The notes under the pieces were generated by a model. The model was not told the DNA's origin. It did not search any database and saw only the letters and a list, made by a program, of their open reading frames with translations. Shown here in pieces: positions 12,261 through 64,000 of a stretch of 64,000 nucleotides of DNA (the first letter of the stretch is position 1; each line of letters begins with the position of its first letter). The translations under genes were made by a program, and so were the position numbers. The stretch lies in NCBI RefSeq assembly GCF_029873635.1, contig NC_080423.1, forward strand, positions 106,315,988 through 106,379,987, written 5' to 3'. Origin of the DNA: Malania oleifera. Its lineage: Eukaryota; Streptophyta; Magnoliopsida; Santalales; Ximeniaceae.

Positions 12261-16787
<4,527 letters not shown>

Positions 16788-21500: not shown

Positions 21501-24500
21501 AACAGCCAGCGCTATAAGCCCAAAGTGAAGCCAAATACCACTCTCAATCCAAAAGATCCTTCTCTCTTTCCAAAAAATGTTCTAGCATTCCTCTCCATGC
21601 AAATTCCCTCCAGCACAAAAGGCAGACCTCCACAGCCTGTCCATATGCTTCCAAAACCAACAAAAAAAAAATACTCAAGAATTAAACTGACTTCAAACAA
21701 ATCCTTGGAGCTACTCCCACACAGACAAATATATGAACACAAAACTTTAGAAAGATTTGTGCGAATAATCCCCTGATGAATCTCAATTCCAAATTCTTGC
21801 ATCACCCTTATTGGAATTAACGCTGCAAAGAATTAAACTCCTCCCAACTCTTTATCGCTCAATCCCTTCTAAAATGAAAATCCCACAAGAAAGATCCCTC
21901 TCAAAGATTAAAAAAGGGAAGGAAGGTGGAGGGAGTACATTTTAACGTTGTTAAAATATGCTTCTTAGAATTTTTTTTCTCAAGATTGTAATTACTGGAA
22001 ATTTCAAGCATGCACAAATAACCTTTAGTACACACCACTAGCTGTTTAAGTGAACAGTCAAATCATAACAATTCATCGGCTTCTCTTAAGTTAGAAAGAC
22101 CCCACATCACCTACCACAAATCCCCTAGAATGACAGGCTTACTTGCAGTCCTTTGAATTTATGATATAGGGGCAAACTTATTTTTAATTCCAGACTCGCT
22201 CATTTGAAAAATCTGAGAAGCAGCGTTGAAGAGATTGATTATTCCTATAAAGCTGCAGCCAATAGAAAACTAAGATGCCACAGCATCATTTTTTTAAAGC
22301 AGAAATTCTAGAATTTCAGGGGCACCAAGTATTAAAAGAGTAGTTCCTACATGTAATCCAAAAATCAAAGATCGTGTATGCGTCCAAGAACTCTTGCCCA
22401 AGTAAATACCTAAGCCACCAATACAAGAAAGCTGTATCAACTCCTTCAAAAATTCTCCTATTTTTCACCACACAACCCAAAAAATGGTGGGAAAGGATAA
22501 GGGAGAGGGCTTTCTCCTCTCTATACAAGCATTCACACATCTGGAAGCCCAAAGTTCCTCCCAGCCACAGCCACAGAGAAGCAAAGAAGAGACAACCCAA
22601 CCACAAATTTCTAGTCCAAAACAGTTTAATAAAATGTAATTCACTGAATCTGCTGCATTTTACATAGAGAACATCATTTCGCCAGGATTAACGTTTATTG
22701 AATGTTAATGATGGTCAAGAGTTAAGACCCTTTCCCAAGCTACTTCCAAAGCAAAAAAACCTATTTTGGTTAGAGCAGCCATATTCTGGCTCACTTTCCA
22801 AGGAAATTAGCCTTTCCTTCAACAAGATTCACTTGTTCTCGGCCTTTACGGTAAGGATTTTAGCGGGAAACAGCCACCAGTATTCAAAATCCAAATTGGC
22901 CTATAATACACATCAAAGAAAAGAGAGAACAATCTCAGCCCCACCCTAGACATCTCTTTCAAAGGAAAAGTTTCAATTGACTTCACGTGTAGAGGAACAT
23001 CCTTGTTTCAAGCACTTAGGAAAATGAGTCTTCAAAAGGATGTCTCCACACCAAAGATCATGCCAAAAATATATTGCCTCCATCCCCCCCCCCCCCGGCC
23101 AATCAAAATGACGCAAAGCAAATATGCTATCATACTTTCTTATCCACCTCAAACCCCCACTCCATATGGTTCCCTTCTAGCCATAGTGATCCACCCATCA
23201 TTATTAGTCATATTTGGCACAGTAGTGCTATGGGGTAACAAGCCCGTGACCATCAAGGGCCCACATAGCGACATCAGGGAAGGAGAAAAGAGTTGTGGTC
23301 CCCATGCACTTCCTTCTCTAATGCTGGTACATGGGCCCATGATGCCATGAGCCTACGATCCCAAGTGTTCTAGTATATGGAAAAACAAATTATCAAAAGA
23401 AAAAACTTATCTCTAGGCCAACAACCATTAAGCAACTTCTCTGATTTTGCCCCTATGGGTAGGGGTTTACTCAATTCTTATTGGTTCGATTTTGACGCAA
23501 ACCGATAACCAAACTGAAAAAATCGATTTTCAAAATATAAATCAAAATTGAACCATACACCAACGGTTTAGTGTAACCGTAAACCGAATTTTTACAATTC
23601 GGTTCAAATTCAACTAAATTTTTAATATAAAAATTTATATTAAAAAAAAATAAAAAAGATTTGCAAGCCCAAAAAAGTTCGAACCTAAATCAAGCCCATC
23701 TAAATGTAGACAAGGCCCAAGGGTGGCCAGCCAACTATAATGGAGGGCCTAACTCGGTGCAATGATAGAAATGCTAGATGGACTTTTATGTAGGAAGGGA
23801 GGGAGATTCTATTCTTCCTCCAACCAATGTGGGACAAAGGTTCCCCTAGGCCAAGTCCCCAACCTAATTGCCAGATCTTCCACTCCACTACACTCGTCCC
23901 ACATCGCCATAATGAGGATTTTGAGAGTCAAGCATCTTATATAAAATCCTTTCCCACTCCCTTGAGCAAGTTCAACAACAATCTAGATTTAATTAGTCAA
24001 AAATATTAATTAATAAAATAAAGTATTAAATGGTTTCAATTATATAATTAAAGAAATAACATATTTCGTAGTACACACATACATATGGTATTAAAAATAA
24101 TCATTTTAAAATTATAATCGGTTTTCGGTTTTTGGGTTCAGTTTTTAAGTGAAACCGAAGACCGAAATACCCAACTGAAGTTTCAAACGGTTCGGTTTCG
24201 GTCCGATTCTCGATTTTTTGGTAAATTTTGTACACCCCTACCTATGGGTCACACCAAAGGAGGAGCATCAAGACTGTTAACCTCTCTCAAAAGAGATTCT
24301 TAGTTTGAACATCTCCAAAAAGACGAGACAACCCAAACACCAAAAATTTTTAGTCCAAAGCATTTTAATAAAATGTAATTCACTAAATTTGCTGCAGTTT
24401 AAATATATTGAGTCTTCAAAGGGATGTCTCCACACCAAAAGATCATGCCAAAAATATATTGCCTCCATTGAACCATCAAAATGACGAAAAGCAAATGTCC

Positions 24501-27500
24501 ACCTCAAAACCCCCCACTCCATATGGCGCCCTTCCATCCATAGTGATCCACTCGTTCTTATTAGTCAATATTTGGCACCGTAGTGTTGTAGGGTCATGGG
24601 CCCATGACCATCAAGGGCCCACATGGCAACATCAGAGAAGGAGAAAAGGGGTTGTGCCCCCCATGCACTTCCCTCTCAATGTTGGCACATGGGACCATGA
24701 TGCCACGGGCCCATGACCCTAAGTATTTTCCTATTTGGCAACAAAGAAAGTTATCAAAAGAAGAAACTTATCTCTTGGCCACCAACCATTAAGCAACTTC
24801 TCTGATTTTGCCCTTATGGATGACAAAGAGAGAGATAGAAGGGGAGGAACTTCTTAGTTTGTTCAACAAGGAGGAGCATCAAGACTGTTAACCTCTCTCA
24901 AAAGAGATACCTAGTATGGACATTTGCAAAAACATCTCTATTCCAAGCCTTCAATTATTTCCTTAAGGCTTTCAATTTCATTGCCCACAATGAAGCTAAG
25001 AAAATTCTAACTTGAAAAATTTCCCACCAATTAAAATAAAATATTTAAATCTTTCATTTTGAGCCACATGTTTCCAAAGCAAAGAAAAGGTGTGGAGCCT
25101 ACCTAACTATACAAGTCTCAAGAAGATTCGGACGGTGCTCAGGGATTGTCCTAGGAAAGTTTCAATAGAAATTTTGAAAAAAACAACCAAGCCTAAAAAT
25201 TCCACTAGTTGAGGTTAGCAATATGAATCCTGTTTTGCTGTTCTACACAATCTAGAGCAATATCCTTAAATATATGGAGAATCCTCCAAGACTTGATCAA
25301 GCAAAAGATCAACCTACAAGTGGGAGATCAAAGAGCGCATCTACATTCAAAAAGATCAAGAGTTCCCTCAAACAAGTTTTCTATAGGAGAACCCCACTTC
25401 TTTCAAGGGAGTAAATAAGTAAACTAAAATCACCTCCCAAGACCCAAGGGCAATCCTCAATAGCCTTTATGCCTAAAAACACTCATTCCGTAGAAGTTCC
25501 ACTGTTTCTTCGTAGCCTATAAATCTCATAAAACTAAGTAAAATTATCCTCCAAAGTTCTAAACAAGAAAGTAACATAGAAGCTCCTTGCCTAGCCATCC
25601 ATTAATACCACCCCATCATCTATAAAAGAATGACAATGCAACCAGCAGCTCCTGCAACCCCATCCATATAGCTAATAATATGCATGTCTATTGACTTTCA
25701 TTTTGGTCTCTTGCAGACAAACAATGATAGTCTTCCACTCCTAAAGGAAAATTTTCAGCACAGCCTTTTTGCTCTGATAATTTCTACCCATAGCTTCCCA
25801 AGTGATAAGCCAAAAAATTCTAAGCACCGTAGAGGACTCATATCCAAATTCTACAACCCAGCTAACCAATCAAATTTAACTGCTCTCTCTTCTCCTGTTC
25901 CTTCTACCTCTTCATTCCCCTTTATTTTTTTATTTAACTTTTTTTAGTACTAGTTCTACAATAATAGAACCAAAGCCAATGCCACAATTTCTCAAATGGT
26001 ATCAAACAGTCTTGTTCGTACATACTAATAATTGCTCATCATGTAGGAGAAATTAGTATTTGTTCATCACAAGGGAGAAAATGAATTATGTAAAGATATC
26101 AATTTGACTGATAAGAGGATTAAGGATAAGTTCTCTTATCATCTAGGTTCTTATTATTATATGGTGTTTAGTAAATTCTACATTTTTTCATAATTATGTT
26201 GTTAGATTAAATATATAGAGTTAATTAAATATAATGTAAGGGAACTGATATCCCTGTGTATAGGGTGTAGAAAAATTGCCGAAAATCAAACCAAAATCAA
26301 ATGCAGTTCGGTTTTTTGGTTCCCCAGTTTCTATTTCGGTTCTCAAAAAAATAAATTTTTAGTTTCGGTTTCAAAACATAACTGAACCGAAAAAATCGAA
26401 AAAAGGATTTAAATAAAAAACTAATATATAAATTAATATAATTAATTAATATATATATCATATATCCGCCTTGGGAGTGGGGGACTAGGTATGGGCGTAC
26501 AAAATTTTTAAATGATTATTTTTAATATTGTATATATGTGAACTATAAAATATATTATTTCTTCATTTATAAAATTAAAACCATTTAATACTTTATTTAA
26601 TTAATTAATTTTTTTAACTAATTAAATATGGGTTGTTGACCTTGCTCAAGGATAAGGAAGGAGTGGGAATGGGATTTATACAAGATGCATGACTCTCAAA
26701 ATTCTCATTTTGGTGATGTAGGACAAGTGTTGTGGAGGGGAAGTTGGGGTGGGGACTTGGCCTGGGGGAACCTTTGTCCCACATTGGTTGGAGGAAGAAT
26801 AGAAGCTCCCTCCCTTCCCATATAAAAGCCCATCTAGCCTTCCTATCATTGGCATTGAGTAAGGCCCTTCATTCTAGTTGTCTGGATGGGCAACCCATAG
26901 GCCTTGTCTACATTCAGAAGGGCTTGATTTAGGTTTGGGCTCTTTTGGGCTTGCAAATCTATTTTATATTTTTTTAAATATAAGTTTTATATTAAAAATC
27001 GAGTAAAACCAAACCAAACCATAAAAATTCAGTTTATGGTTACACTAAACCGTCGGTGTATGGTTTGATTTCGGTTTTAGATTTTGAAAACCGATTTTTT
27101 CAGTTCGGTTATCAGTTTTGACCAAAACCAATAAGAACAGAGTACACCCCTACCTGTGTATGTGCACTCTACATATATTTTGGATTGTACATCAAACTTC
27201 CATAATAACTGTCATCATTGTAATTTGCCTTCAATTAAATAAGTTAAGAGTTGCACACATGGTAACTGGCAACTGCACCTTATAATATGGCACCATCCCC
27301 TATGGGGCATGATTTTCAACTATAAAATTTTAATTGATTAGTAAAAAAAATTCTTTCATGCTTATTAAAGATTGAAATACAAATATATACTATTTTAATG
27401 TTATTTTGTGTATGCATTGAATCAACATGCCAATATCTAGACACAGTTGGACTCCTGACCCACAGGCCGCAACAAAAGCATGTCCACAACTTTCAAACTT

Positions 27501-30500: not shown

Positions 30501-30641
30501 CACAGCATGACGGTAATCCGGAACAAATCCAGAGGACAAATGTCCCTTAGAGAATTTCCGTGTTTTCCCCATCATTTGTGATAGTGAACACTTTCTTGAC
30601 TCCTTCTGCCCAGTGTACTCTATGGGAACAGTTGGTGCCAT
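18518..30641 (-). CDS. GTE8: BET bromodomain transcription factor, GTE8/GTE10 group (complete, 10 coding exons)
   Basis: Nuclear reader of acetylated histones. Exons on the minus strand: 29325-30641, 29160-29208, 28851-29006, 19930-20003, 19739-19808, 19516-19596, 19321-19436, 19150-19216, 18878-19008, 18518-18793; all introns GT-AG, phases consistent, 778 residues. Start chosen at the ATG giving [13 protein letters not shown]; the frame also opens at an upstream GTG (30665), not a plant start. [22 protein letters not shown] (24-45) is the group signature. The bromodomain is about 205-305 with acetyl-lysine-binding Asn283 (TYNPPGNDV). The NET domain is about 354-429 ([18 protein letters not shown], then an EIDIDAL acidic stretch). 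Then come a Ser/acidic linker, a charged Ala/Glu/Arg coiled coil (about 600-690) and the C-terminus LEQLGLYMK...DVEEGEID. Length fits GTE8. The exact paralogue is uncertain; the family is certain. Confidence 0.95.
20382..20860 (+). mobile_element. 5'-truncated L1 LINE 3' end with 20-bp TSD
   Basis: Plus-strand remnant of the C-terminal zinc region of L1 ORF2 and its 3' tail. [24 protein letters not shown] (20450-20525) matches the xWNxLFxxFGVxWV block that follows the last zinc ligands. A decayed MWxxWRERN region follows near 20620. The flanks aacattcagaatcccaacaa (20362-20381) and aacattcagattcccaacaa (20861-20880) agree at 19 of 20 bases and mark the target duplication. No poly-A tail is left. 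Confidence 0.75.
22587..24935. repeat. Tandem duplication of an L1 segment, one unit hAT-interrupted
   Basis: Unit 1 runs from about 22587 to 24310 and unit 2 from about 24318 to 24935. Shared landmarks are ttaataaaatgtaattcact (22625 and 24367), gatgtctccacaccaaa (23039 and 24424), catgcacttcc (23307 and 24662) and aaggaggagcatcaagactg (24256 and 24867). Unit 1 contains an extra stretch of about 340 bp (22676-23020) missing from unit 2, and the hAT element 23460-24240. Unit 2 is therefore a paralogous empty site for that insertion. Confidence 0.75.
23460..24240 (-). mobile_element. Non-autonomous hAT element, copy 1, with snRNA-like promoter module
   Basis: 781 bp. The left end TAGGGGTTTACTC and the right end gtacacccctA are inverted relatives of TAGGGGTGTACA. 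The exact 8-bp duplication cctatggg lies at 23452-23459 and 24241-24248. Subterminal regions are dense in ggttcggtttcggt motifs in both orientations. On the minus strand GTCCCACATTG (23834 side) is followed, after 34 bp, by CATAAAAG (23790-23783), matching the promoter module of copies 2 and 3 with a weakened TATA. No transposase is encoded. Orientation is given by the promoter module. Confidence 0.88.
26261..27152 (+). mobile_element. Non-autonomous hAT element, copy 2, with snRNA-like promoter module
   Basis: 892 bp, inverted relative to copy 1. The left end is TAGGGTGTAGA and the right end GTACACCCCTA. The exact 8-bp duplication cctgtgta lies at 26253-26260 and 27153-27160. The interior is homologous to copy 1 (aacctttgtcccacattgg, ccatctagccttcctatcatt, ggccttgtctacattcag). 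GTCCCACATTG (26776-26786) is followed by TATAAAAG at 26821, with 34 bp between them. No ORF of note. Confidence 0.9.
27161..28396. other. Intron sequence without recognised features
   Basis: Part of GTE intron 3. No transposon termini, coding homology or RNA structure was recognised. Short ORFs on both strands have no family resemblance. Confidence 0.45.
28397..28706. mobile_element. MITE, 310 bp, AGGGTAAAAGACAC termini
   Basis: Inverted ends: AGGGTAAAAGACACATTACT on the left and AGTGCAAAGGACACTGACCT when the right end is complemented. The interior repeats caagggaggt/aggggaggt motifs. A relative lies at 53552-53869. No target duplication is visible. The superfamily is not determined. Confidence 0.6.
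29293..29316. repeat. (CA)n microsatellite next to a GTE splice donor
   Basis: On the coding strand this is a (GT)n run starting seven bases after the exon 1 donor (GTCTGTCC). It offers alternative GT dinucleotides close to the real donor. Confidence 0.85.
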
Positions 30642-31740
30642 AAGATCAACCCCCAATATCTGCACATGTCAACTTCTGACAATTAGATTTATACCCTGAC
30701 CTCAAACTTCAGACACCCAGATTGGAAAAAACATAAATTCATGCCAGTATATATCCTTCACGTTAGAGTATAGTTAATTTCAAATCTTTTATCACGCTTA
30801 ATTCTTTATTTTTCTTTTTTCATTGCATCCCATCAGCATCGGCCGTTTCCTTCTTCCCCACAATATTGAGAGTCAAATTTAAAATTTTCCCTCACAATAA
30901 AGTCCAATTTGACATCCAGCAGCACGACTTCAAAATCTCCACAATCATTCAATAATTTCTCTCAATTTTGACAAACAAACAGAAGCATAATCAAATATCC
31001 AAAAAAATATTAAAAACCCTAGTTCCAACACATTCACTGATTCAGTTCAAACAATGCAAACCCCGCAAGTCCCAAAGACCGTAAAACGATCACGCCCCTA
31101 AAAAGTTCGTATTTTTGTGTCGCTCAAGAAACTCAAAAGAAAACTCCTTTGTTGCTACAGGTCGAAAACTCCTCACAACAAAGGCAATTATATATTCAAC
31201 GACGCAAATAAGTGTTAGAAAGATATACACGAACGAATCCTAAGCCGAGTCGAGCATAAACCGCACAGAGAAAACCCTAGATCGACGGAGATACCCCGAG
31301 AAAGAAGCTAAACAAATCTGATCGCGACGATTAAAAGAATGCTTCAATTGAAAACCCTAGAAATCCTTCGCAAGAATCCAATTCAAAACCTGGATCTCGA
31401 GCAGAAGAGCCGTTGGGCGTGCCGTACGAAACCCTAGAAACCCCTTCGTAATTCTCTTCCAGAGTGAGAAAAAAAATGAGAGAGAGGGGGAGAAGGCTTT
31501 TTAGAGAGAGAGACGAAGCCAAAGCGAGCGAGAGAGAGAGAGCTAAAATCTGAGATGGCTAGGTTAGTTTGCTCCTCTACTTAAAGGCCCAGTGCCTGAC
31601 TCGCCCGCCGCGAGCCAATTAATCGCCACCGTTCAATTCCCGACTCTGCATAATCTAAGGGCTATCGCGCATTCCTATTTCGAACCGTCCGATCTAGATC
31701 CGACGGCGGAAATTATTCCCGACCACTGTGTTCAGACCGT
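30642..31740 (-). promoter_or_regulatory. GTE 5' leader, probable leader intron, and promoter
   Basis: Just upstream of the ATG the coding strand reads ...ACATGTGCAG then ATATTGGGGGTTGATCTT, a good acceptor, so a leader intron probably ends at about 30661. The first leader exon is likely around 31300-31555, a region with long CT runs (minus strand) typical of plant leaders; its donor was not fixed. Farther up, TGGGCC (31590 region, seen as ggccca on the plus strand) is a site II-type element found in proliferation-linked plant promoters. An imperfect palindrome CCGTCCGATCTAGATCCGAC lies at 31686-31707. Confidence 0.5.
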
Positions 31741-36535: not shown

Positions 36536-37605
36536 ATGTCTACTCAAGCCGTGAATCCTTACTGAGGTCGTAGGATTTATGTTGAAAGAGTGCCACTTAT
36601 GATTCCTAGAGAAAGACCTTACTTCCCTCCACAGAGGCGAGTAAGTCGCCAAGATGACATTGCTAGGATACCCCCACGTCATAAGCCCTATGCCCAACAT
36701 TGGGATGATGAGGACTATGACATTGATGACCTTCATATTAGAAGACCTTGCCGTAAGGACCGGTGTGATCCTTACAATGATAAAATGAGGATAAAAGCCC
36801 CCATCTTTGATGGACAAAAAGATCCTAAAGTCTTCCAAAATTGGTTGACTAGAATGGACGCCTATTTTGAGTGGTGTAAGATGCATAACTCACATCGAGT
36901 GATGTTTGCAAAAATGAGACTAATCGGGCAAGCCAAACTCCATTGGATAAATGTTGAGAGGCAAGAAACAAGGTTAAACCATAGACCCATTGAGCATTGG
37001 GATCTAATAAAGGATATATTAAGGGAGAAGTATGCACCCCTTGGATATAGAGAGCACCTTATAGATCAGCTTTACGACTTGCGTCAAGGTAGTATGACTG
37101 TTCTAGAATATATGAATCAATTCAATAAGCTGACTGTAAGATGTGGTGTCTATGAGACTGATAGTCAACATACCTCTCGGTTTTGTCTAGGACTAAAACC
37201 TAAAATGAGGAGAAAACTATTCCCATATCACATGAAGTCCCTTGAACATGCCTATAGTTTAGCTTATAACTTTGAGCAAGGGACTAAAGAGCCCATGGGA
37301 AAACAGTTTGATACCTCTTCCAATGAGTCATACTCTTACCAGATTCAGAGTTATGAAAAGTCCCAACCAGCACAATCAAGTCTAGTCACCTCCCGAGAAA
37401 GCAATTCCCCAGTCGAACAACCTATGGACAAAGGAAAAGCGCCTATGGACTAGGCGCTTGAAAGGGAAGATGGTGAAAAAAATGAGAAGGAAAAGAGAAA
37501 AATTAGTGATGAATCCTTAAACCCCATAAGTAAAAATTTGTGTGATCAAGAAAATCAAAATGCACAGGAAGTGTCGGTGGATGTTCCTAAGGAAACTGAA
37601 ACACC
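36536..37605 (+). pseudogene. Outer element gag
   Basis: The original start is probably the ATG at 36536 (MSTQAVNPY), but an in-frame TGA at 36563 breaks it. The open part begins at 36590 and runs to a TAG at 37451-37453. Retrotransposon gag domain with DGQKDPKVFQNWLTRMDAYF (about residues 73-92 of the open part), VMFAKMRLIGQAKLHWINVE and LRQGSMTVLEYMNQF. Lys/Glu-rich sequence continues past the stop until the inner element inserts at 37611. No zinc knuckle is seen, and protease is absent on both sides of the insertion. Confidence 0.85.
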
Positions 37606-40324: not shown

Positions 40325-43300
40325 CTAAACTCCACTGAATAAGTGCGGATATCTCTGGAGCATCTGATCCTTTAGTTCCCAAGAAGCCTCCTTAATGGCA
40401 TGGTTGAGCCACAGAACTTTTACCAGTGGAATCTTCTTCGTGCGTAGCTCCTGTTCCTTCCAGTCAAGAATCTGCACTGGCACTTCCTCATAAACTAAAG
40501 TATCGCCCAACTCCAGTGCTTCATATCTAATCACATGGGAAGGGTCTGGGACGTATTTCCTCAGCATAGAAACGTAGAATAAGTCATGGATCCTAGATAG
40601 GACCGGTGGTAATGTCAAACGATAAGCAACTGGACCCACTCTCTCAAGAATCTCGAATGGTCAAATATACCTAGGACTCAGCTTACCCTTCCTCCCGAAC
40701 CTCATAACACCCTTCAGCGGTGCCACCTTCAGGAATACGTGATCTCCTGTGTCAAACTCCAATTCTCGCCGACAAGTATCAACATAACTCTTCTGCCAGC
40801 TCTGCGCTGTCCTGATCCTGTCTCTGATAAGTTTGACTTTATCCCGAGTCTGCTGTATCAGCTTTGGCCCCAATACCTGTCTCTCTCCAACCTCTTCCCA
40901 GTACAACGGGGATCGACACCTCCTGCCATACAGTGCCTCATACGGTGCCATCCCAATGCTGGCCTGGTAGTTGTTATTATACGCAAACTCAACCAGTGGC
41001 AAATACTGCATCCAACAACCTCCAAAATCCAGCACACATGCTCGCAGCATATCCTCCAAAATCTATATTGTCCTCTCTGTCTGTCCATCTGTCTAAGGAT
41101 GAAAAGCTGTGCTGAACGACAACTTAGAACCCATGGCTTCTTGCAGACTCTTCCAAAAACGAGATGTGAACCGTGGGTCTCTATTTGAAACTATGGACAC
41201 TAGGACGCCATGGAGCCTAACTATCTCCTGGATGTATAACTCAGCCAATCTGTCCATGGAGTAGCTAACTCTGATCGGCAAAAAGTGGGTAGTCTTCGTC
41301 AATCGATCCACCACTACCCAAATAGCGTCTTGTCCATGCAATGTTGGCGGTAATCCTGAAACGAAATCCATCGCTATATGCCCCCACTTCCACTCAGGAA
41401 TGTGGAGTGGCTACAACAATCCCGCCGGTCTTTGATGCTCAGCCTTCACTTGCTGGCACGTCAAACACTGACCTACAAACTGAGCTATCTCCCTCTTCAT
41501 GTTGCTCCACCAGAAGGACTCTCAGAGATCCCTATACATTTTAGTGCTACCTGGATGTACAGTATATAGGGATCGATGTGCTTCCTCCAGAATGACTTTC
41601 TTGATCTCAGGATCGGCAGGAACACATAACCTGATACGGAACCTCAAGGCTCCATCATCTGAAATGCTGAACTCTGGTTCCTGAACATCCTGTACCTTTC
41701 CCATAAGCTCTACTAGTTTTGCATCATTCCTCTGAGCTGCTTTAATCCTTTCCTATAGAGTCGGCTGCAAAACTAAGTCAGCAATGAATGCCTGGTGATC
41801 GCCCTCTACCAGCTCCACACCGAGCCTTTCCAGATCCATCTGAATCGGATGCTGAATCTCCACTGCAGATACAGATGATTCCACTGATTTTCGACTCAAA
41901 GCATTAGCAACCACATTAGCCTTTCCTGGGTGGTAGCTAATAGTGCAGTCGTAATCCTTTATTAGCTCTAGCCATCTCCTCTGCCTCATATTCAATTCCT
42001 TCTGTGTGAATAAATACTTTAAACTCTTATGGTCAGTAAATATCTCACACCTACCCCCATATAGATAGTGCCTCCAAATCTTCAGCGCGTAAACAACTGC
42101 CGCCAACTCTAGATCGTGGGTAGGATAGTTCTTCTCATATTCTTTCAACTGTTGTGAGGCATAGGTTATCACTCTCCCCCGCTGCATCAACATGCATCCG
42201 AGCCCTTTATGGGACGCATCACTGTAAATTACGAACCCCTCTTCTCCTGAAGGAATCGTCAACACAGGCGCAGTGATGAGTCGCTGCTTCAACTCCTGGA
42301 AGCTCTGTTCACATTCATCAAACCACTCAAACTTCGCTTCTTTCCTGGTTAATTTGCTCAACGGGCCTGACAATCGAGAGAAGCCCTCAACAAACCTGCG
42401 GTAGTACCCAGCCAACCCCAGGAAACTCCTGATCTCGTGCACGTTCTTTGGTCGTACCTAGTCAACTACCGCCTCAATCTTACTCGGATCAACAGAAATA
42501 CCACCCTTGGATATAACGTGTCCAAGGAAGGTAACTTGTTCCAGCCAAAATTCACACTTCTTGAGCTTCGCATATAGCTTCTTCTCTCGCAACACCTACA
42601 ACACCATACTCAGATGCTCCTCATGCTCCTCTGGACTCTTCGAATACACCAGTATATCATCAATAAATACTACCACAAACTGATCCAAGTACTGGTGAAA
42701 AATCCTGTTCATAAGATCCATAAACACTGCAGGAGCATTCGTCAACCCAAACAACATAACTAGAAATTCATAGTGACCATGCCGTGTTCTAAATGCCGTC
42801 TTCAGAACATCTTCCGCCCTGACTTTCACCTGATGGTACCCGGAGCTTAAATCTATCTTCGAAAAGATCTGTGTCCCCTGTAACTGGTCAAACAAATCAT
42901 CAATACGCGGGAGCGGGTATTTATTCTTGATAGTTACTTTATTTATTTCTCGATAGTCGATGCACAACCTCATCGAGCCATCTTTCTTCCTCACAAACAA
43001 AACCAGTGCTCCCCAAGGTGACACACTAGGCCGAATGAACCCCTTATCTAACAGCTCCTGCAACTGCTCTTTCAATTCTTTCAGCTCTGTCGGTGCCATT
43101 CTATACGGCGCCTTCGAAATCGGCGCTGTCCCTAGAACCAGATCAATAACAAACTCTACCTCACGATCAGGAGGTAGTCCCGGCAAATTCTTGGGAAATA
43201 CATCAGGAAAATCCCTCACCACTGGAATATCCTCCACCCTCAGTTCCTCTTCTGATACAGCCTTCACATAGGCTAAATATCCCTGACAACCTTCCGATAG

Positions 43301-43682
43301 CAATCTACATGCCTGAATAGCAGATAATAACTGAGGTGAGGTGCGCACACGTGATCCCACGAATTTGTACTCCTGTCCCTCTGGAGGTCTAAACACTACC
43401 ACTCTCTGATGGCAATCAATGCTAGCATAGTGGGTAGCTAGCCAATCCATGCCCAAGATTACCTCAAACCCATGCATGTCTAAAACCACCAGATTAGCTA
43501 ACAAATACCTCCCTTGAATATCCACTGGACAGGCCCTGGGTACCTTTCTACATACCCCTACAGTCCCAGTTGGCGTAGCAACAGACAAACTAATTTCCAA
43601 CTGCTGAGGCTTAAACCCACACATTTTAATATAATCCTGGGCGATAAATGAATGCGTCACCCCATAATCAAACAAAACAATA
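40325..43682 (-). pseudogene. Inner element pol (PR-RT-RH-IN-chromodomain) with stops
   Basis: From the right: protease at 43680-43400, where the active site reads [11 protein letters not shown] (DYG instead of DSG). Reverse transcriptase spans 43200-42600 with [23 protein letters not shown] and catalytic FIDDILVYS. RNase H is near 42230-41950 ([21 protein letters not shown]). Integrase follows with zinc-finger EEAHRSLYTVHPG and CLTCQQVK. Its core starts MDFVSGLPP at 41371, and the second catalytic region reads SNRDPRFTS where SDRD is usual. The chromodomain is near 40480-40340 (VPVQILDWKEQELRTKKIP, then SWELKDQMLQRYP). Breaks near 42600-42440, 41750, 41520, 41090 and 40650 are mostly single stop codons. 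Not functional. Confidence 0.9.
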
Positions 43683-44798
43683 GCTTTAAATGACAGTACC
43701 TATCACCACATCTCTTGCTGCCTTAGCATCTCCTGGCGTCAAAGCGAAAACTCTGGCTGGGGCCGTATTCCTCTGCTGGCCTCCTCGTGGTGCCTGGTAA
43801 CCTCCTCGTGCAGGTCTAGGAGTAGTACTAGTCTGTGTCGGACACTCCCTCATCATATGTCCTGGCTCCCCGCACCTGTAGCAGACACCTCGCCCAGCAC
43901 GACACTCTCCCAGGTGTCTCTTCCCGCAATATGGGTAAGCTGGAGATGACTGCATACCCTGGAAACCATGATTCCCGGTCTTCTGTCTCTGGTTCCTATA
44001 ATAGCCACCTCTCTTCCACGCGGCACGGCTAACTCCCTGCTGGAAGCCAGAAGGAGTAGACCTCTTCTTCTGCCTCTGCTCCTCAGCCTCCAACCGATCA
44101 CCAATTTCTGCTATAGTGGCTCAGTTAACCAGCTCGGTGAAGTCTTGCAACTTCAAAATCGATACCTGCTTATAAATTTCTCTCCTTAAGCCTCTTTCAA
44201 ACTATCGTACTTTCTTCGTCTCATCTGGAATAATGTACGGGGCGAAGCGAGATAGCTCGATGAACCTCGCCGCATACTGTTATATTGACAGCTGTCCCTG
44301 CTTCAGATTCAGGAACTCCGTAATTTTAGCCTCCCTGGAAGAGACTGGAAAATACCTGTCAAAGAATATCTCTCTAAATTGCTCCCAAGTCATCTCTACA
44401 GGTATAGTCCTCTGCTACTCTAACAATCTCACTGTTGACCACCATCTCTCGACCTCTCCAATCAGTCTGTAGGTGGCAAGCAGCACCTTTTGCTCCTCTG
44501 AACACTACAGCACTGTAAATATCTTCTCCATCTCCTGCACTCAGTTTTTAGCAACTGCAGGATCCGTTCCCCCTGAGAAAGCTGGAGGATTCATCTTTAT
44601 GAACTTCTCGATCGTACAATCGTGGCCTACAAACGAACCACCTTGCTCCTTCGAACTCCGGGCAATTTCTGCCATCACTTGCTGTGCTACGCTGCGTAGG
44701 ACGGCATCTGAGTCACTACCTGCAGCGCCCGAGGGTCCAGCACCCTCACTCCCACTGGCGTGGGCACTATTGCCACCAAGGTCCATCCTGAAAAACAT
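43683..44798 (-). pseudogene. Inner element gag with zinc knuckle
   Basis: Begins with an ATG at 44798 ([15 protein letters not shown] follows). The gag core comes after a stop near 44540 (VQEMEKIF, then EVERWWSTVRL). Then come ERGLRREIYKQVS near 44180 and the knuckle CYRCGEPGHMMREC near 43870-43830 (C-X2-C-X4-H-X4-C), followed by an Arg/Gly-rich tail leading into protease. Several in-frame stops (for example near 44500, 44405 and 44120). Structural capsid protein of the retrotransposon. Confidence 0.85.
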
Positions 44799-47227: not shown

Positions 47228-47563
47228 AGGTTGCAGGAAAATAAAAATTAAAAAAAAAAAAAAAAAAAGAAAGAAGAAGAAGAAGAAGAAGATAGGAAAG
47301 GGGGGGGGGGCTCCAATTTGAAACACCTGAAGCTTCAAGAAGCTTCAGGTGATTTATAATAATAATAATAATCATAATATATTTAATTAATATTAATAAT
47401 AATATATTTTATTAATAAAATAAAAATAAATTTCAATTATTTTTTTTTCTTTTTTTTTCTTTTTCTTTTAAATTTGATTAATTAATTAATTAATATTTTA
47501 TTATTTATTATTTTTTGGAAATCAATCCACTAATATTTTATATCTCTTTTTGGGGTTTTTACA
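45104..47563 (-). repeat. Inner element 5' LTR (right copy)
   Basis: 2460 bp, near-identical to 37611-40059. As the promoter-side LTR it differs by a longer GA run (47188-47222) and by a unique perfect palindrome at 47324-47351. Confidence 0.92.
47324..47351. repeat. Perfect 13-bp inverted repeat in the inner 5' LTR
   Basis: CACCTGAAGCTTC, spacer AA, GAAGCTTCAGGTG. The left LTR has only the single arm-like cacctgaagcc at the same place, so the palindrome arose after insertion or by template switching. Confidence 0.95.
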
Positions 47564-47568
47564 CCTTT

Positions 47569-48845
47569 CTCATCAGGAAACACCCGTAGAAGTATCATCC
47601 CTACTTTCTGAGTTTAAGGATGTCATCTTTGAGTTGCCTAGTGAGTCATCTCCCATGAGAGACAATCAACATATCACTGACCTTGTTCCTTATTCATCCC
47701 TGCCTCATTTACCACATCATAGAGTGAATCTGATAGAACACGAGGAGCTGAAACAAGTAAATGAATTGAAGGAACATGACTTCTTTCATAAGATTTTAGG
47801 TCCACTTGGCTGCCCTACTTTCCCTAATCCCAATGAAGATAACACTTTGACCACATGCATCAATGATAGAGCAACCAACAAGATTCTCATCGAGCATAGG
47901 TTTCTCAAAACCATTATTTCAAATAAAGATGTACAACTCATAGGTTACTTCTTGAAAGCCTTAAGGACCATGTTAGGCACCAAACTTAAATGTTCTAGTG
48001 CTTACTACCCCCAAATTAATTGTCGAGTTGAACTAGTAAATAGAAGCCTTAGGGACCCGTTGAGATGTAAGGTAGTTGGAAACATCATATCTTGGGATTT
48101 ATGCCTTCTTGTGGCCAATTTTGCATTTAGTAGTTTAGTGGATAGCACTGCAATACTCAGACCATTTGAAGTTATCACAGGATATAGTCCTAGAAAGTCT
48201 ATAGATCTTATTCCACTACCACTTAAGTATAGAGTGAGTGAGCCGACTTATGCTTTTGCAAAACATATACACAATCTACACTTTGAAATAAGAATGAAGG
48301 TTAATTTGAATCACGAACATTATAAATCTAACGCTGACATACATTACATGTTGAAAGAATTTTCAAAGGGTGATATGGTTATAGTCTATATTCGTCCTAA
48401 ACAGATTCCTGTAGGACAGGTCAAGAAGTTACATGCTAATAAGATGGATCATTTCAAAATTTTAAAGAAAACTAGTTTTAATACTTATATGCTTAATATT
48501 CCTATTGATTTTGGCATAAGCAATGTGTTTAATGTTAAAAATCTAACCCCTTTTCTTGAAGCAGCACTTTTGTGGAGCCTTCAAATTTTAACCATGCAGG
48601 TGATCCTACTTCATTCCCTAATCCTCTTTAACCAGAAACTCCAGAGTTATCTTTGTCTCTGCCTTTACCCATAACAAAAAACCTCGATGAGATCGAAGAG
48701 ATTTTGGATGATAAGGCAACGTTCACATGAGCAGGATCATATCAAAAGTTATTTGTCAAGTCGAGAGACGAGCCACTTTCTGAGAGGAGCTGGATACTTA
48801 AAGAAGACCTCCTTCATCGCACCTCGGAGTTGTATTCCCACTACA
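47569..48845 (+). pseudogene. Outer element deleted pol: RT start fused to integrase, then chromodomain
   Basis: One open frame to 48674 starts with the pre-RT region (LLSEFKDVIFELPSESSPMRD, HHRVNLIEHEELKQ). Near 47870 it passes directly into integrase (SNKDVQLIGYFLKALRTMLG, KCSSAYYPQINCRVELVNRSL). The RT catalytic core, RNase H and integrase zinc finger are gone. The SNKD motif replaces SDRD, so an essential aspartate is lost too. The C-terminal part has GDMVIVYIRPKQIP...KKLHA and FGISNVFNVKNLTPF. After a stop a chromodomain remnant follows at about 48695-48840 (YQKLFVKSRDEPLSERSWI), marking it as a chromovirus. Confidence 0.85.
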
Positions 48846-51233: not shown

Positions 51234-52228
51234 TAGGGGTGTACAAAATTTACCGAAAAATCGAAAACCGGACCGAAACCGAACCGAAACACATTTTGGT
51301 TCGTTTTTTCGGTTTGCGGTTTCGATTTCGGTTTTGAAATACAAAAAATTTCGGTTTTGATTTTGGACCAAAACCGAAAACCGAATTAATAAATAATAAT
51401 TGTATAATTTTATATAAGAGATGCTACGGTGCTACAGGCTTACGGCTGCTACGGTGCTACCTGTTGCCTTGGTGTTGGATCGCCAGTCGCCGGCCAGAAA
51501 CCACCTCCGAATCCACCTCTAGTCGGTCTGGATGGCGAAGATTTCTAGGACGAAGTCCATGCGAGTCTGCGACGCTCGCACTCCTCTTCTTGGAGCTTGA
51601 GACTTGAGAGAGATGCCTCGGAGTCTCGGATAGAAACAGAACCCTCGGACAGATGCCTCAGAGTCTCAGACAGTCACAGAACCCTTCTTGGAACTTGGAT
51701 GATCTTCTTGTTGGTGTGGAAATCCAGGGTCATGCGAATGCGAGAGTAGTACTTCTCGATCACCTGCCGAGAAGATTTCTTCACCATCTTGGTGCGCACA
51801 TACCCCATCTGTGTGTGTGTGTGTGTTTGCGAGAGAGAGAGGCCACCGACGAACTGCAAAGAGGGCAATTGGGGAAGTACAGATTTGCCAAGGCATATGC
51901 AGGAAGCCAGGAACCACATGCTAGCCATCGGCCCATCCCACATCGGTTGGAAATGGGAAGAGAACTAGTATCCCACCCTATATATTTTATGTGGATCCTC
52001 CTTTCAACATGTCTTACGTTTTGGGTTTTGCTATTAAAGCCTTAGCCCAGAAATTTTATAATTTCACAATGGGCTATGGCCTGTTAATGCAGCCCAGCTC
52101 AAGTAATATTTTGTTTTGATAGTTCAAAATTCGGTAAAACCGAAAATAACCAAACCGAACCGTAGAGTTCATGGTTTGGTTGGCGGTTTTGGTAAAAACC
52201 GAACTGAACCGAACCGTGTACACCCCTA
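51234..52228 (+). mobile_element. Non-autonomous hAT element, copy 3, with the best snRNA-like promoter module
   Basis: 995 bp. Ends TAGGGGTGTACA and TGTACACCCCTA are perfect inverted repeats over 12 bases. The exact 8-bp TSD attacaag lies at 51226-51233 and 52229-52236. Subterminal arrays of ccgaaacc/ggtttcgg motifs match copies 1 and 2, but the middle differs (gctacggtgctac repeats near 51420-51460). ATCCCACATCG (51935-51945) equals the plant snRNA upstream-element consensus RTCCCACATCG at all 11 positions. TATATATT starts 33 bp later at 51979. A GT/GA microsatellite sits at 51811-51840. The longest ORF (51653-52045) has no recognised domain. Confidence 0.92.
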
Positions 52229-52236
52229 ATTACAAG

Positions 52237-53551
52237 CTTCCATGCAATTTAATGGGCCATATTAAGCCCAATCCAGTCTCAGTTGAATTTGAAGTATCCA
52301 CCTTAGCGCAGCATAATAAATAAATAAATAGAACTTACCTTAAAGCTTATAAATTCCATTTTTTTAATGAATTTGTTTTCTTCAATATTTTTTGGGTTTA
52401 TATGGTTTTATCTTTGGGATTTTATTATAAATTTCAAATATAAACAAAGGGTTACATATTTTTTTTTTAAATATTAAGTAAATTTGGCCTAACTCACGAC
52501 ACATATAATCAATTAAAACAAGACACCTTAGCGATATGTGCGAGCATCTCATCTCACACATTGTAACAAAATTCTATACTTTACAAAAATTAATTTCAAT
52601 TGAATTTGACAGAGAATCATTTGATTATCACGTGCTTTAATTTGGTATTGTAGACGAGTTTTGTAATTATCATTTTTGTTTCTTAAATTCGATAATTATA
52701 ATTTTTTAATGACATAATTAGTAGGTGAGGTGGACCCAAATGTAGATTAGTGATTACAAATGAAATTTCGAATAATAATGATATTAATATATATTAATTT
52801 TTCAATAATTTGTTTGAAATGTCCCAATGAACAATATTTACAATTCATGAATATATAAGTAATTTAAGTTATTTTTTATTTTTAAAAATAAATAAATCTT
52901 TATAACTACTTAGTCTCTATCATCTTATCAACTTCAAATATCTCCAAATAATATAGCATTTAAAATTTTAGAGCATGCAATTTTAGTAAGGTTGACGGTG
53001 TTATTATTTATCAACTGCTTTTTTTGCTTGACTTAAATGATAACACAGTGAAACGCTGATTGTTTAATCAATTTGGATTGGGCTTAAGCTGCAAATCCAA
53101 GCCTGCAATTTTAATGGGCCACAGTAGGCCCAATCCAATCTCATTTGAGTTTGAAGTTTCAACCTCAGCCCAACATAGAAATTGAATGAATAAACAAATA
53201 AAACTTACCGCAGAGCTTATGAATTCAATTTTCTAGTAGGTTTACTTCTTTTTGGCTGTTAATGGTTTTTTTGTTTTTTTTTTGTTTGAGATGATATAAT
53301 TAAAATTTAAAATAGAAACAAAGAGATATATAATTTAGAAGAAATTATTAGATATAGTTGGTCAATCACATCACTCATAAGATAAAAATAATAATAATAA
53401 TAACAACGCATATATACAAGCGTCTCAGTTATTGTAACAAAAAATTATATTTCATAATAATTATTTTTTATATAACATAAAAATAAGTTTTTTGTTAACC
53501 TCAATAATGTTGTGCAAAAAATCAGGAAAGAAAAAAATCAACATTTATATT
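52237..53551. other. AT-rich spacer with a duplicated block (paralogous empty site)
   Basis: 53078-53270 resembles the sequence around hAT copy 3 without the element: ttgggctt...aag...taatgggcca...gcccaatcc, then acttacc...agcttat. 52620-52920 resembles parts of 31985-33770. No gene recognised. Confidence 0.5.
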
Positions 53552-61214: not shown

Positions 61215-64000
61215 AAAGCGGAGTTGACTGAACTCTTGGACGAATTCTCTGATTTGTTCGCATGGTCGGCAGCAGACATGTCCGGCATCGACCCTGCTGT
61301 GATAGAGCACAGGTTGCAGGTCAACCCTAACCATCGACCTGTAAAATAGAAAAAAAGGAGCTTCGCGATGGAACGGATCAAAATAATTGATGAAGCGGTG
61401 ACGAAACTGTTGCAGGCAAACTTCATCCAAGAAGTGGACTACCCCGAGTGGTTGAGCAATGTGGTCCTGGTTAGGAAGCCCAATGGAAAATGGCGCACCT
61501 GCATAGACTTCACGGACTTGAATAAAGCGTGCCCAAAGGACAGCTTTCCTCTCCCTCGAATTGATCAGCTAGTGGATTCAACCTCGGGACACGAGCTCCT
61601 CAGCTTCATGGACGCTTACTCAGGGTACAATCAAATCCCTATGAGTCCAGCGGATGAGGAAAAAACTTCTTTCGTCACCGAAAGGGGTTTATATTGTTAC
61701 CGGGTGATGCCCTTCGGCTTAAAAAATGCGGGGGCCACATATCAGAGGCTAGTGAACAAGATTTTTAAAGAACAGCTCGGAAAAACAATGGAAGCTTATG
61801 TGGACGATATGTTGGTGAAGAGCATGGAAGCAAGGCAACATTGTAAAGATCTGAGGGAAACGTTCGAACTCCTCCGCCGGTACCACATGAGGTTGAATCC
61901 CTCGAAGTGCGTGTTCGGCTTTTCTGCAGGTAAATTCCTGGGCTTTATGGTGACTCACAGAGGTATAGAAGCAAATCCGGATAAAATACGAGCGTTGCTG
62001 GAGATGGAAGCTCCAAGGAATAAAAAGGAGATACAAGTTCTGACCGGAAGGATAGCCTCCCTCAGCAGATTTATCTCTTGCTCAGGGGACAAAGGCTTAC
62101 CTTTCTTTAGAGCACTGCGGAAGAAGGGAGGATTCGAATAGGGGGAAGATCAGGATGTAGCCTTCGAGCAGCTTAAGCAATACCTCGGATCCCCTCCTCT
62201 CTTAACAAAAGCAAAGAATGGGGAAGACCTCTATCTATATATAGCTTCCACGGAGAATGCCGTCAGTTCGGTTTTGGTCCAGGAAGAGGGTAGGAAGCAT
62301 CAGCCTATATATTACACAAGTAAGGTGTTAAGTGGCGCCGAGAAGAACTATTGTACGGTGGAAAAAGCCGCCTTCTCCATCATCTGTGCAGCGCGTAAAT
62401 TAAGACCCTATTTTCAAGCCCATAGGGTTGTCGTGTTAACAAACCTGCCCATGAGACAAATTCTACAGCGACCGGAGAGTTCGGGAAGAATGATGAGGTG
62501 GTCGATAGAATTAAGTGAATTCGACATACAGTATCAACTGAGGCCTGCGGTCAAGGCTCAGGTACTCGCGGATTTTACAGCAGAAAGGCTCCCCGAGTCA
62601 TCCGCCAAGTTGGAGGACTGGACATTGCACGTTGATGGGTCCTCTAATGCTGCTGGAGGGGGAGCCGGATTCATCCTTTCTGACCTGGAGGGCAATGAAA
62701 CTCTCTTCGCCCTAAAATTGGAGTTCACAGCAACCAACAACGAGGCGGAGTACGAAGCCCTGTTAGCCGGCCTGCGCCTGGCAGAAGCATTAGGGGTGGC
62801 ACAGATCAAAGTACTGAGTGATTCCCAGCTGGTGGTAGAGCAACTCAAAGGAGAATTCGAAGCTAGGGATCCAAGAATGAAGAAATATCTCTCCAAGGCA
62901 AGAGGGTACATAGAAGCATTCGTCCACTTCGACATAGAACACGTACCGAGAGTAGAGAATAAAAAGGCGGACGCACTAGCGAAGTTAGCCTCGGCAACCG
63001 GTTCGGAATGGAAAGACATTATCTATCTTGAACGCATAGGGAACCCCTCCTACAAGGAGGACAGAATTAACTCAGTGGCGTCCGAATTCAGCAAAGACGA
63101 TTGGAGAGAGTCCTTATTCCTGTACCTAAAGGACGGATCCTTACCAGGAGATAATAAGGAGGCTCAAAAGGTGAGGAGGAAAGCGGCAAGATATACGTTG
63201 ATGGGCCGGGAGCTCTACAGGCGATCCCTGACATTGCCCTACTTTCGATGTTTAAGCAAAGAAGAAGGGGAATACATACTACGGGAAATCCATGAAGGAG
63301 TATACGGAAACCACCTTGCCAGTAGGGCTCTAGCTCACAAAGCTATGCGACAGGGATTTTACTGGCCCACAATGAAGAAGGACGCGATTGAACTCGTTAG
63401 AAAATGTGACAGATGTCAAAGGTGCGCTGTGGTACCACACGCACCCTCTAGTCTACTCTCTCCTCTAACAGGTCCCTGCCCTTTTGGTCAGTGGGGGATA
63501 GATATCCTCGGACCTCTTCCACAGACGACTGGCCAGAAAAAATTCTTGTTGGTAGCAATAGATTATTTCACTAAGTGGGTAGAGGCCGAACCCCTAGCCA
63601 CCATAACAGAGCGGAATATTACACGCTTCGTGTGGACCTCATTGGTTTGCTGCTACGGCATTCCCTCAGCGATAGTTACAGACCACGGGAAGCAGTTCGA
63701 CAACGACTGCTTCAAAAAGTTCTGTTCGGATCTATCTATTAAGCTTCTCTTCGCGTCGGTGGCGCACCCCCAGAGGACGCGACTCGAGTCCATGCAAGGT
63801 AGATGGACAGAGGAACTCCCTTCCCTTATGTGGGCGTACCACACCACCAAGAGAGCAGCAACAGGGGAAACCCCATTCATGCTTGTCTTCGGCGCAGAAG
63901 CAGTCATCCCAGCAGAGGTGGGGATACCCTCTTGGCGAAGGCAATACTTTAACGAGCAGACCAATAGCGAGGAGCTCAGATCAAAAATAGACCTACTGGA
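61215..64000 (+). pseudogene. Tat-type pol: RT, RNase H, second (archaeal-type) RNase H, integrase; open at right edge
   Basis: RT has CIDFTDLNKACPKDSFPLPRID near 61500 and the intact catalytic YVDDMLVKS near 61800. The first RNase H is around 62160-62560. A second, archaeal-type RNase H at about 62620-62990 (LHVDGSSNAAGGGAGFIL, EAEYEALLAGLRLAEALG, SDSQLVVEQL) is the hallmark of the Tat lineage. Integrase shows CDRCQRCAVVPHAP, WGIDILGPLPQTTGQKKF and TDHGKQFDN. In-frame TAG codons interrupt at 61347-61349 and 62139-62141. After AHPQ near 63775 a short deletion removes the stretch that normally carries the third catalytic residue (Glu). The element continues beyond the window. Confidence 0.9.

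Follow-up and report, generated by a model that had tools for sequence, protein, structure and literature searches.

The three short transposons of the window (the whole stretch of 64,000 nucleotides of Malania oleifera DNA that was analysed) are non-autonomous hAT elements, one of them a Pack-hAT, which have probably acquired outward-facing snRNA-type promoters for RNA polymerase II (Pol II). This reading is made from sequence. Its best founded part is the nature of the module itself, an upstream sequence element (USE) followed at a nearly fixed distance by a TATA box, which is very likely a genuine snRNA-type promoter module, and we also lean towards the view that the promoter is active in at least some of the copies.

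Elements and promoter modules in the window

According to PMC9845283, plant snRNA promoters consist of the USE RTCCCACATCG and, some four helical turns further downstream, a TATA box. The window lies on a contig labelled C7 of the 1.49 Gb genome that was searched (C1 and C2 below are labels of other contigs), and its elements, here c1, c2 and c3, comprise the following features.

23460..24240, plus strand: c1, non-autonomous hAT element, 781 bp; TSD CCTATGGG, 8/8
23784..23790, minus strand: TATA box (CATAAAA) of the c1 minus module, gap 34
23825..23835, minus strand: USE GTCCCACATTG of the c1 minus module, 10/11
23896..23906, plus strand: USE GTCCCACATCG of the c1 plus module, 11/11, absent from the initial annotation
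23940..23946, plus strand: TATA box (TATAAAA) of the c1 plus module, gap 33
26261..27152, plus strand: c2, non-autonomous hAT element, 892 bp, inverted relative to c1; TSD CCTGTGTA, 8/8
26674..26680, minus strand: TATA box (TATAAAT) of the c2 minus module, gap 33
26714..26724, minus strand: degenerate USE GTCCTACATCA of the c2 minus module, 9/11, absent from the initial annotation
26776..26786, plus strand: USE GTCCCACATTG of the c2 plus module, 10/11
26821..26827, plus strand: TATA box (TATAAAA) of the c2 plus module, gap 34
51234..52228, plus strand: c3, non-autonomous Pack-hAT element of 995 bp, flanked by the TSD ATTACAAG, 8/8
51518..51895, minus strand: diverged fragment of a captured eS17 (Ribosomal_S17e) gene in c3; PF00833, E = 5.6e-12
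51935..51945, plus strand: USE ATCCCACATCG of c3, 11/11 match to RTCCCACATCG
51979..51985, plus strand: TATA box (TATATAT) of c3, 33 bp past the USE
52008..52228, plus strand: predicted outward-transcribed stretch of c3, its putative start placed about 30 bp past the TATA box

Two features mark c1, c2 and c3 as hAT elements, namely the 8-bp TSDs, which are perfect (8/8) in all three as the initial annotation had stated, and terminal inverted repeats, TAGGGGTGTACA, that are common to a transposase-bearing hAT. Their termini are of the TAGGGGTG type, with a degenerate 5' end in c2 (TAGGGTGTAG). The same annotation had treated the three as one family; c1/c2 and c3 are, however, two subfamilies with shared ends and not one uniform family. 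The relatives c1 and c2 are 81% identical across 671 bp in opposite orientation, and the likeness of c3 to c1 is confined to about 90 bp at one end and 55 bp at the other. Elsewhere in the window, a BET bromodomain protein gene has an exon beside c1 and c2 (29265-30668, minus strand), and retrotransposon pieces with gag, protease, reverse transcriptase, RNase H and Tf2-1-like SH3 domains are found at 36566-37450 (+), 41756-43699 (-), 47490-48671 (+), 61350-62138 (+) and 12950-13468 (-).

Each element had been credited with one module, at spacings of 34, 34 and 33 bp. These values are reproduced for the c1 minus module, the c2 plus module and c3, as is the perfect USE of c3, but a single module per element describes only c3, where it lies beside the antisense eS17 fragment; c1 and c2 each have a second module, divergent from the first. 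In all five modules the gap is 33-34 bp, a feature of Pol II-type snRNA promoters, and the Pol III-type (U6/U3) gap, one helical turn shorter, occurs in none of the five. TATA boxes were scored by a simple 7-letter match, the one nearest 33 being chosen among equal matches. By this rule a match of at least 6/7 was chosen at 32-35 for 5.6% of 20,000 random window positions.

Host snRNA genes

The snRNA genes of the same genome provide the yardstick for these distances. In the U1 and U2 genes the USE-TATA gap is 34 bp in seven of the eight measured (four U2 and three U1); the eighth, a U2 match (L082, USE 8/10), has its best TATA at 32 or 15. In the U6 genes, TTAATAA lies at a gap of 24 in five of the ten fetched, those with a clear TATA, one of which (L088) has a second, equally scoring TATA match at 23. 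Upstream stretches of 10 U2 and 10 U6 genes had been fetched, and gaps were taken from five U2 (USE at least 8/10) and from the five U6 with a clear TATA; in the fetched stretches a good USE is missing in the other five U2 and in three U6, and a clear TATA in two USE-bearing U6. The three U1 genes (L110, L111 and L112), identified as U1 by the gene start ATACTTACCTGG, came from the USE sample described below; they have no canonical TATA and carry TACAAGA, a TATA-like box scoring 5/7, 34 bp from the USE. Since the gap is 34 in U1/U2 and 24 in U6, the hAT modules, at 33-34, have the Pol II geometry.

Spacing and conservation among family copies

The c3 query gave 1080 candidate copies, of which 40 were scored and 30 loci, including c3, were fetched. 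Among these 30, the TSD matches at 8/8 in 23 and at 7/8 in 6, and L039 has no resolved 5' end. Together with seven hAT copies from the USE sample (TSD 6-8/8) they form a set of 37, in which the gap is 33 in 29, 34 in seven and 32 in one. The terminus search and spacing test proposed at the outset thus came out positive, with 33/34 bp in 36/37 c3-type copies, and this count, together with the 7/8 host U1/U2 genes, upholds the original proposal that non-autonomous hATs spread USE-TATA modules at Pol II spacing. The c1-type set (n=22) consists of c1, c2 and 20 more cores, fetched after 40 of 712 candidates had been scored. Its plus modules have the TATA at 33 in 14, at 31 in four and at 29 or 32 in two, and its minus modules at 34 in 12 and at 32 in three; no TATA is present under the scoring rule in 6/22 minus and 2/22 plus modules, and one of the 22 minus modules was skipped for a USE below 7/10.

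Conservation differs between the two subfamilies. In the alignment of the 37 c3-type copies it is.966 for the USE,.965 for the next 16 bp and.949 for the TATA box, as against.859 for the remaining spacer,.843 past the TATA and.822 for the predicted transcript; the element end is likewise well conserved (.915-.921). In the c1-type copies, USE (.913/.880) and TATA (.773/.788) are not conserved above their own spacers (.916/.916), which argues against selection on each copy. Selection, which the initial annotation had put forward, is therefore favoured only by the c3-type copies, whose USE and TATA are kept above their near surroundings.

Do the modules merely hitch-hike?

The main rival of our reading, and a real alternative because many USE sites lie in LTR-like repeats, is that the modules hitch-hike as relics of promoters captured from a host gene or an LTR-like element that uses them, useless to the hAT, and that the 33-34 bp gap survives only through the youth of the copies. 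We regard this as unlikely, though well short of negligible. The decay of the c1-type modules at the pace of their own spacers speaks for it, and so do the capture of host sequence by hAT ends and the distribution of USE sites in the genome, to which we now turn.

The fragment captured by c3 consists of a 91 bp leader and coding sequence to about codon 95 (ATG at 51808) and is 72.5% identical to the native eS17 gene L148, so that the modular capture suggested earlier holds for this central part of the element. The feature of Pack-TYPE elements, a piece of a host gene enclosed by the terminal repeats, is thus present in c3; we do not claim it for c1 and c2. In another copy (L041) the captured eS17 and a native eS17 gene have 92.8% identity along 377 bp, and 24 of the 70 eS17 matches in the genome fall inside the 40 scored c3-type hAT places. 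Acquisition of the USE along with the eS17 capture was considered and rejected: the 557-559 bp read upstream of three full-length eS17 genes contain no USE-like site of at least 8/10. As L001 and L015, moreover, match the USE arm and not the captured eS17 part, the promoter belongs to the hAT arm.

Genome-wide, the exact pattern RTCCCACATCGG has 1092 occurrences and its reversed counterpart 69. Among the first 68 listed sites of USE plus the following G on C1, LTR/TRIM-like clusters account for 21 + 17, hAT-like modules for 13 plus L014, the type of L139/L140 (below) for five and U1 genes for three; eight are of no clear class. Both ends were verified at six of the 14 hAT-like sites (long loci, TSD 7-8/8), L014 has a TSD of 6/8 and two further ones are paired by their termini, while within 1.4 kb no hAT ends were found for L107 and L123 (hAT-like) or L113 (L139/L140-type). 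In the two TRIM/LTR-like clusters an exact USE, close to where the LTR begins, is followed at a U6-like gap by a TATA-like box, which was located by patterns fitted to those clusters: the gap is 25 in 18/21 members of the first (L002-L004, L010, L018-L020, L025 and others; none found in three), and 24 in 14/17 and 25 in 3/17 members of the second (L006, L007, L011, L021 and L023 among them). A TTTT run at +50..+85 past the USE, which would terminate Pol III early, is present in 17/21 and 16/17, respectively. LTR pairs were directly seen in part of the LTR clusters only, and none in the tested L008-like members of the first. A separate LTR-like family (L144, L145) combines USE and TATA at a gap of 33, the Pol II spacing; its repeat start holds the USE, followed by a primer-site-like TTGGTATYAGAG, and one LTR was seen. 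Such a family counts in favour of hitch-hiking.

What weighs against relics is, (i), that within the promoter stretch of c3 nothing is better conserved than USE and TATA, even where the spacer has changed, and (ii), that the same geometry recurs in unlike cores. Two further hAT elements, L139 and L140, are 828 and 739 bp long with TSDs CTACCATG and GTGTATGT (8/8), and both carry a divergent USE-TATA pair with gaps of 33 and 34 (one L140 box scores equally at 32). The ends of L139 are common to c1 and c3, and L140 has a variant end. Their cores are 69% identical to one another over about 350 bp, inverted, and match neither the c1 nor the c3 core. Three unrelated cores, those of c1, c3 and L139/L140, thus share this geometry, and in two of the three the modules form a pair that faces outward.

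A possible small RNA product

A further reading takes the modules as promoters of genuine small capped RNA genes, snRNA-like and about 100 nt long, which end at a conserved AAGTA patch. In its favour, the stretch 52004-52110 folds at -33.3 kcal/mol, better than its shuffles, which average -20.4 kcal/mol (z -4.17, 1/200 as good), and 32/37 c3-type copies have CAN3-10AGT and 32/37 have AAGTA, always 80-109 nt into the scanned stretch. The family as a whole, however, points the other way. The consensus fold of 19 copies is weak (-12.4 kcal/mol, with two-sided change in 3/17 pairs) and individual copies fold differently from one another in this region, so that a conserved RNA product, good as the single c3 fold is, was rejected. 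The plant snRNA 3' box, CA(N)3-10AGTNNAA according to PMC5079582, is exact in 1/37 c3-type copies. Rfam gives nothing that reaches the gathering score across the window, and within 51900-52240 its best hit has E 1.3. New snRNA-like genes, which the initial annotation had envisaged, are accordingly not supported here, and we consider small RNA genes an improbable explanation.

Transposase-bearing partners

Partners that encode the transposase were sought through PF05699 (hAT transposase): three of 20 3' flanks end in the TAGGGGTGTACA repeat, one of them with a mismatch. The partner at C1:2908513-2913191 is 4679 bp long, has the TSD GTAGCAAC (8/8) and, as far as it was read, an open frame of 694 codons; the other three partners have a broken frame in the 5' parts read. 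Such elements raise the question whether the module is the promoter of the transposase, left behind in internal deletion derivatives of an autonomous hAT. The terminal and subterminal repeats common to c3 and the partner at C1:2908513-2913191, with identities of 82.7% in the initial 133 bp and 83.9% in the final 56 bp, are in keeping with this. Yet the likeness is limited to these stretches: beyond the ends, and save for subterminal-repeat matches, c3 shares no interior with the autonomous element, and c3 as its internal deletion derivative was rejected. The modules, furthermore, face outward, and neither the four partner sequences nor the three 3' ends read contain a USE of at least 9/10 (at 8/10 the four partner stretches have 2, 3, 6 and 3 matches, respectively). 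An origin of the module in the transposase promoter is thus contradicted for the copies read and, overall, very improbable.

A sample drawn blind to the USE, consisting of 100 listed exact termini on C1, bears on the same subject. It gave 22 elements with both ends, three long (4.66-4.68 kb) and 19 shorter. An exact USE is present in 8/19 short paired elements and 0/3 long ones, a difference that is not significant alone (p = 0.27), and on the C1 lists used it was not found in 11/19 of the short TIR-paired elements. Around single termini of the C1 sample, an exact USE lies inward in 9/56 and outward in 1/100 (p = 0.0005). This test covers exact USEs from the C1 list, which extends to 138.9 Mb, and passes over TCCCACATCG without the next G and without TATAWA. 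Two hAT elements on this contig, C1:34254-35316 and C1:84919-85981, are both 1063 bp long with both ends 50,665 bp apart, and are perhaps a segmental duplication; exact RTCCCACATCGG is present only in C1:34254-35316, not in C1:84919-85981.

Genome-wide spacing

The pattern USE-N15-45-TATAWA has 622 matches in the genome, against 181 for its reversed counterpart. One hundred listed matches of the 622, from C1 and C2 only, were collapsed to 85 USE sites by keeping the shortest gap, and their spacers were clustered by single linkage. Among the matches listed, the gap is 33 at 47, 34 at 11 and 26-27 at 10 of the 85 sites; of 28 spacer clusters, 14 have a modal gap of 33/34 and six one of 25-27. 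Under uniform gaps the cluster peak at 33/34 has p = 4e-10 (3e-9 without the U2 cluster), and the 25-27 group is marginal (p = 0.048). That the USE-TATA spacing is mere chance in AT-rich DNA, where TATA-like words are common (at least 6/7 anywhere in the scan at 35.5% of random window positions), is next to inconceivable: the peak at 33/34 in 58/85 sites and 14/28 clusters contradicts it among the matches listed, and so does the agreement with the 34 bp gap of U1/U2.

Discussion

If hAT elements have indeed acquired outward snRNA-type promoters, the sequence of events may be envisaged as follows. Elements such as c1, c2 and c3 would be moved in trans by transposase-encoding hATs of about 4.7 kb with the same ends. 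SNAPc would bind the USE and then recruit TBP, on the TATA box, and Pol II, the 33-34 bp gap presumably determining the choice of this polymerase. Transcription would start about 30 bp past the TATA box and run outward via the subterminal arm to the terminal repeat. Any benefit of the promoter is conjecture, as a non-autonomous DNA transposon needs no promoter to move; the likeliest use would be that a constitutively bound promoter keeps chromatin open and thereby the short element reachable for the transposase. Such a chromatin benefit of the module to the element appears rather doubtful to us. The scattering of SNAPc-type promoters would then be a side effect.

The plant Pol II U-snRNA genes (U1, U2, U4, U5) are a close parallel, having a USE and a TATA box at the same gap, which is 34 bp in seven of the eight U1/U2 genes measured, as compared with 33-34 bp in the elements. 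Unlike them, the element modules lie inside transposons, often as divergent pairs, and have no downstream snRNA and, measured against the 3' box given above, as a rule no exact one. With Pack-TYPE elements c3 shares hAT ends that enclose a captured host fragment (eS17), amplified in the genome; it differs from them in the outward snRNA-type promoter beside the cargo, which does not come from the captured gene. A review of gene capture from 2026 (PMC13317346) contains neither 'Pack-hAT' nor 'hAT' in its main text.

Transposons that amplify a short binding site are already known, as are USEs outside snRNA genes. In Brassicaceae, according to a review (PMC12595863), E2F sites, 10-bp regulatory sites, were amplified by MITEs including hAT; transposons multiply regulatory sequence there too, but in contrast to that single site the hATs described here carry an entire core promoter, whose two parts stand at a fixed distance. 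The same review has no occurrence of 'snRNA' or 'upstream sequence element'. Trans-species microRNA loci of Cuscuta campestris have a U6-like USE promoter, supported by an expression test, according to the commentary PMC10226582. They likewise place the USE outside snRNA genes, with features consistent with Pol III, whereas the hAT gap is that of Pol II. In PMC11656987, which deals with the LTR sequences of plants, a word search finds no snRNA, CCCACAT or upstream sequence element. Judged by title and abstract beginning, none of the open-licence papers listed is about USE-TATA promoters in transposons, or about hATs that contain such a promoter complete and with Pol II spacing.

A wider picture, which we offer tentatively and to which we give somewhat less than even credence, is that hAT MITEs and Pack-hATs, LTR-like and TRIM-like elements may separately have adopted the SNAPc promoter, hATs and one LTR-like family at 33-34 bp and two TRIM-like clusters at 24-25 bp. 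Transposons might then be the main reservoir of USE-TATA promoters, and the snRNA route a general way of transposon expression.

With so many spacers that are unrelated in sequence and yet 33-34 bp long, the elements amount to a natural experiment on USE-TATA spacing. If the promoters are active, many ready-made SNAPc-type promoters would travel with hATs, facing outward into host DNA. The spread of these transposons would thus be linked to the snRNA transcription machinery, and it may offer a way by which new small RNA genes could arise naturally.
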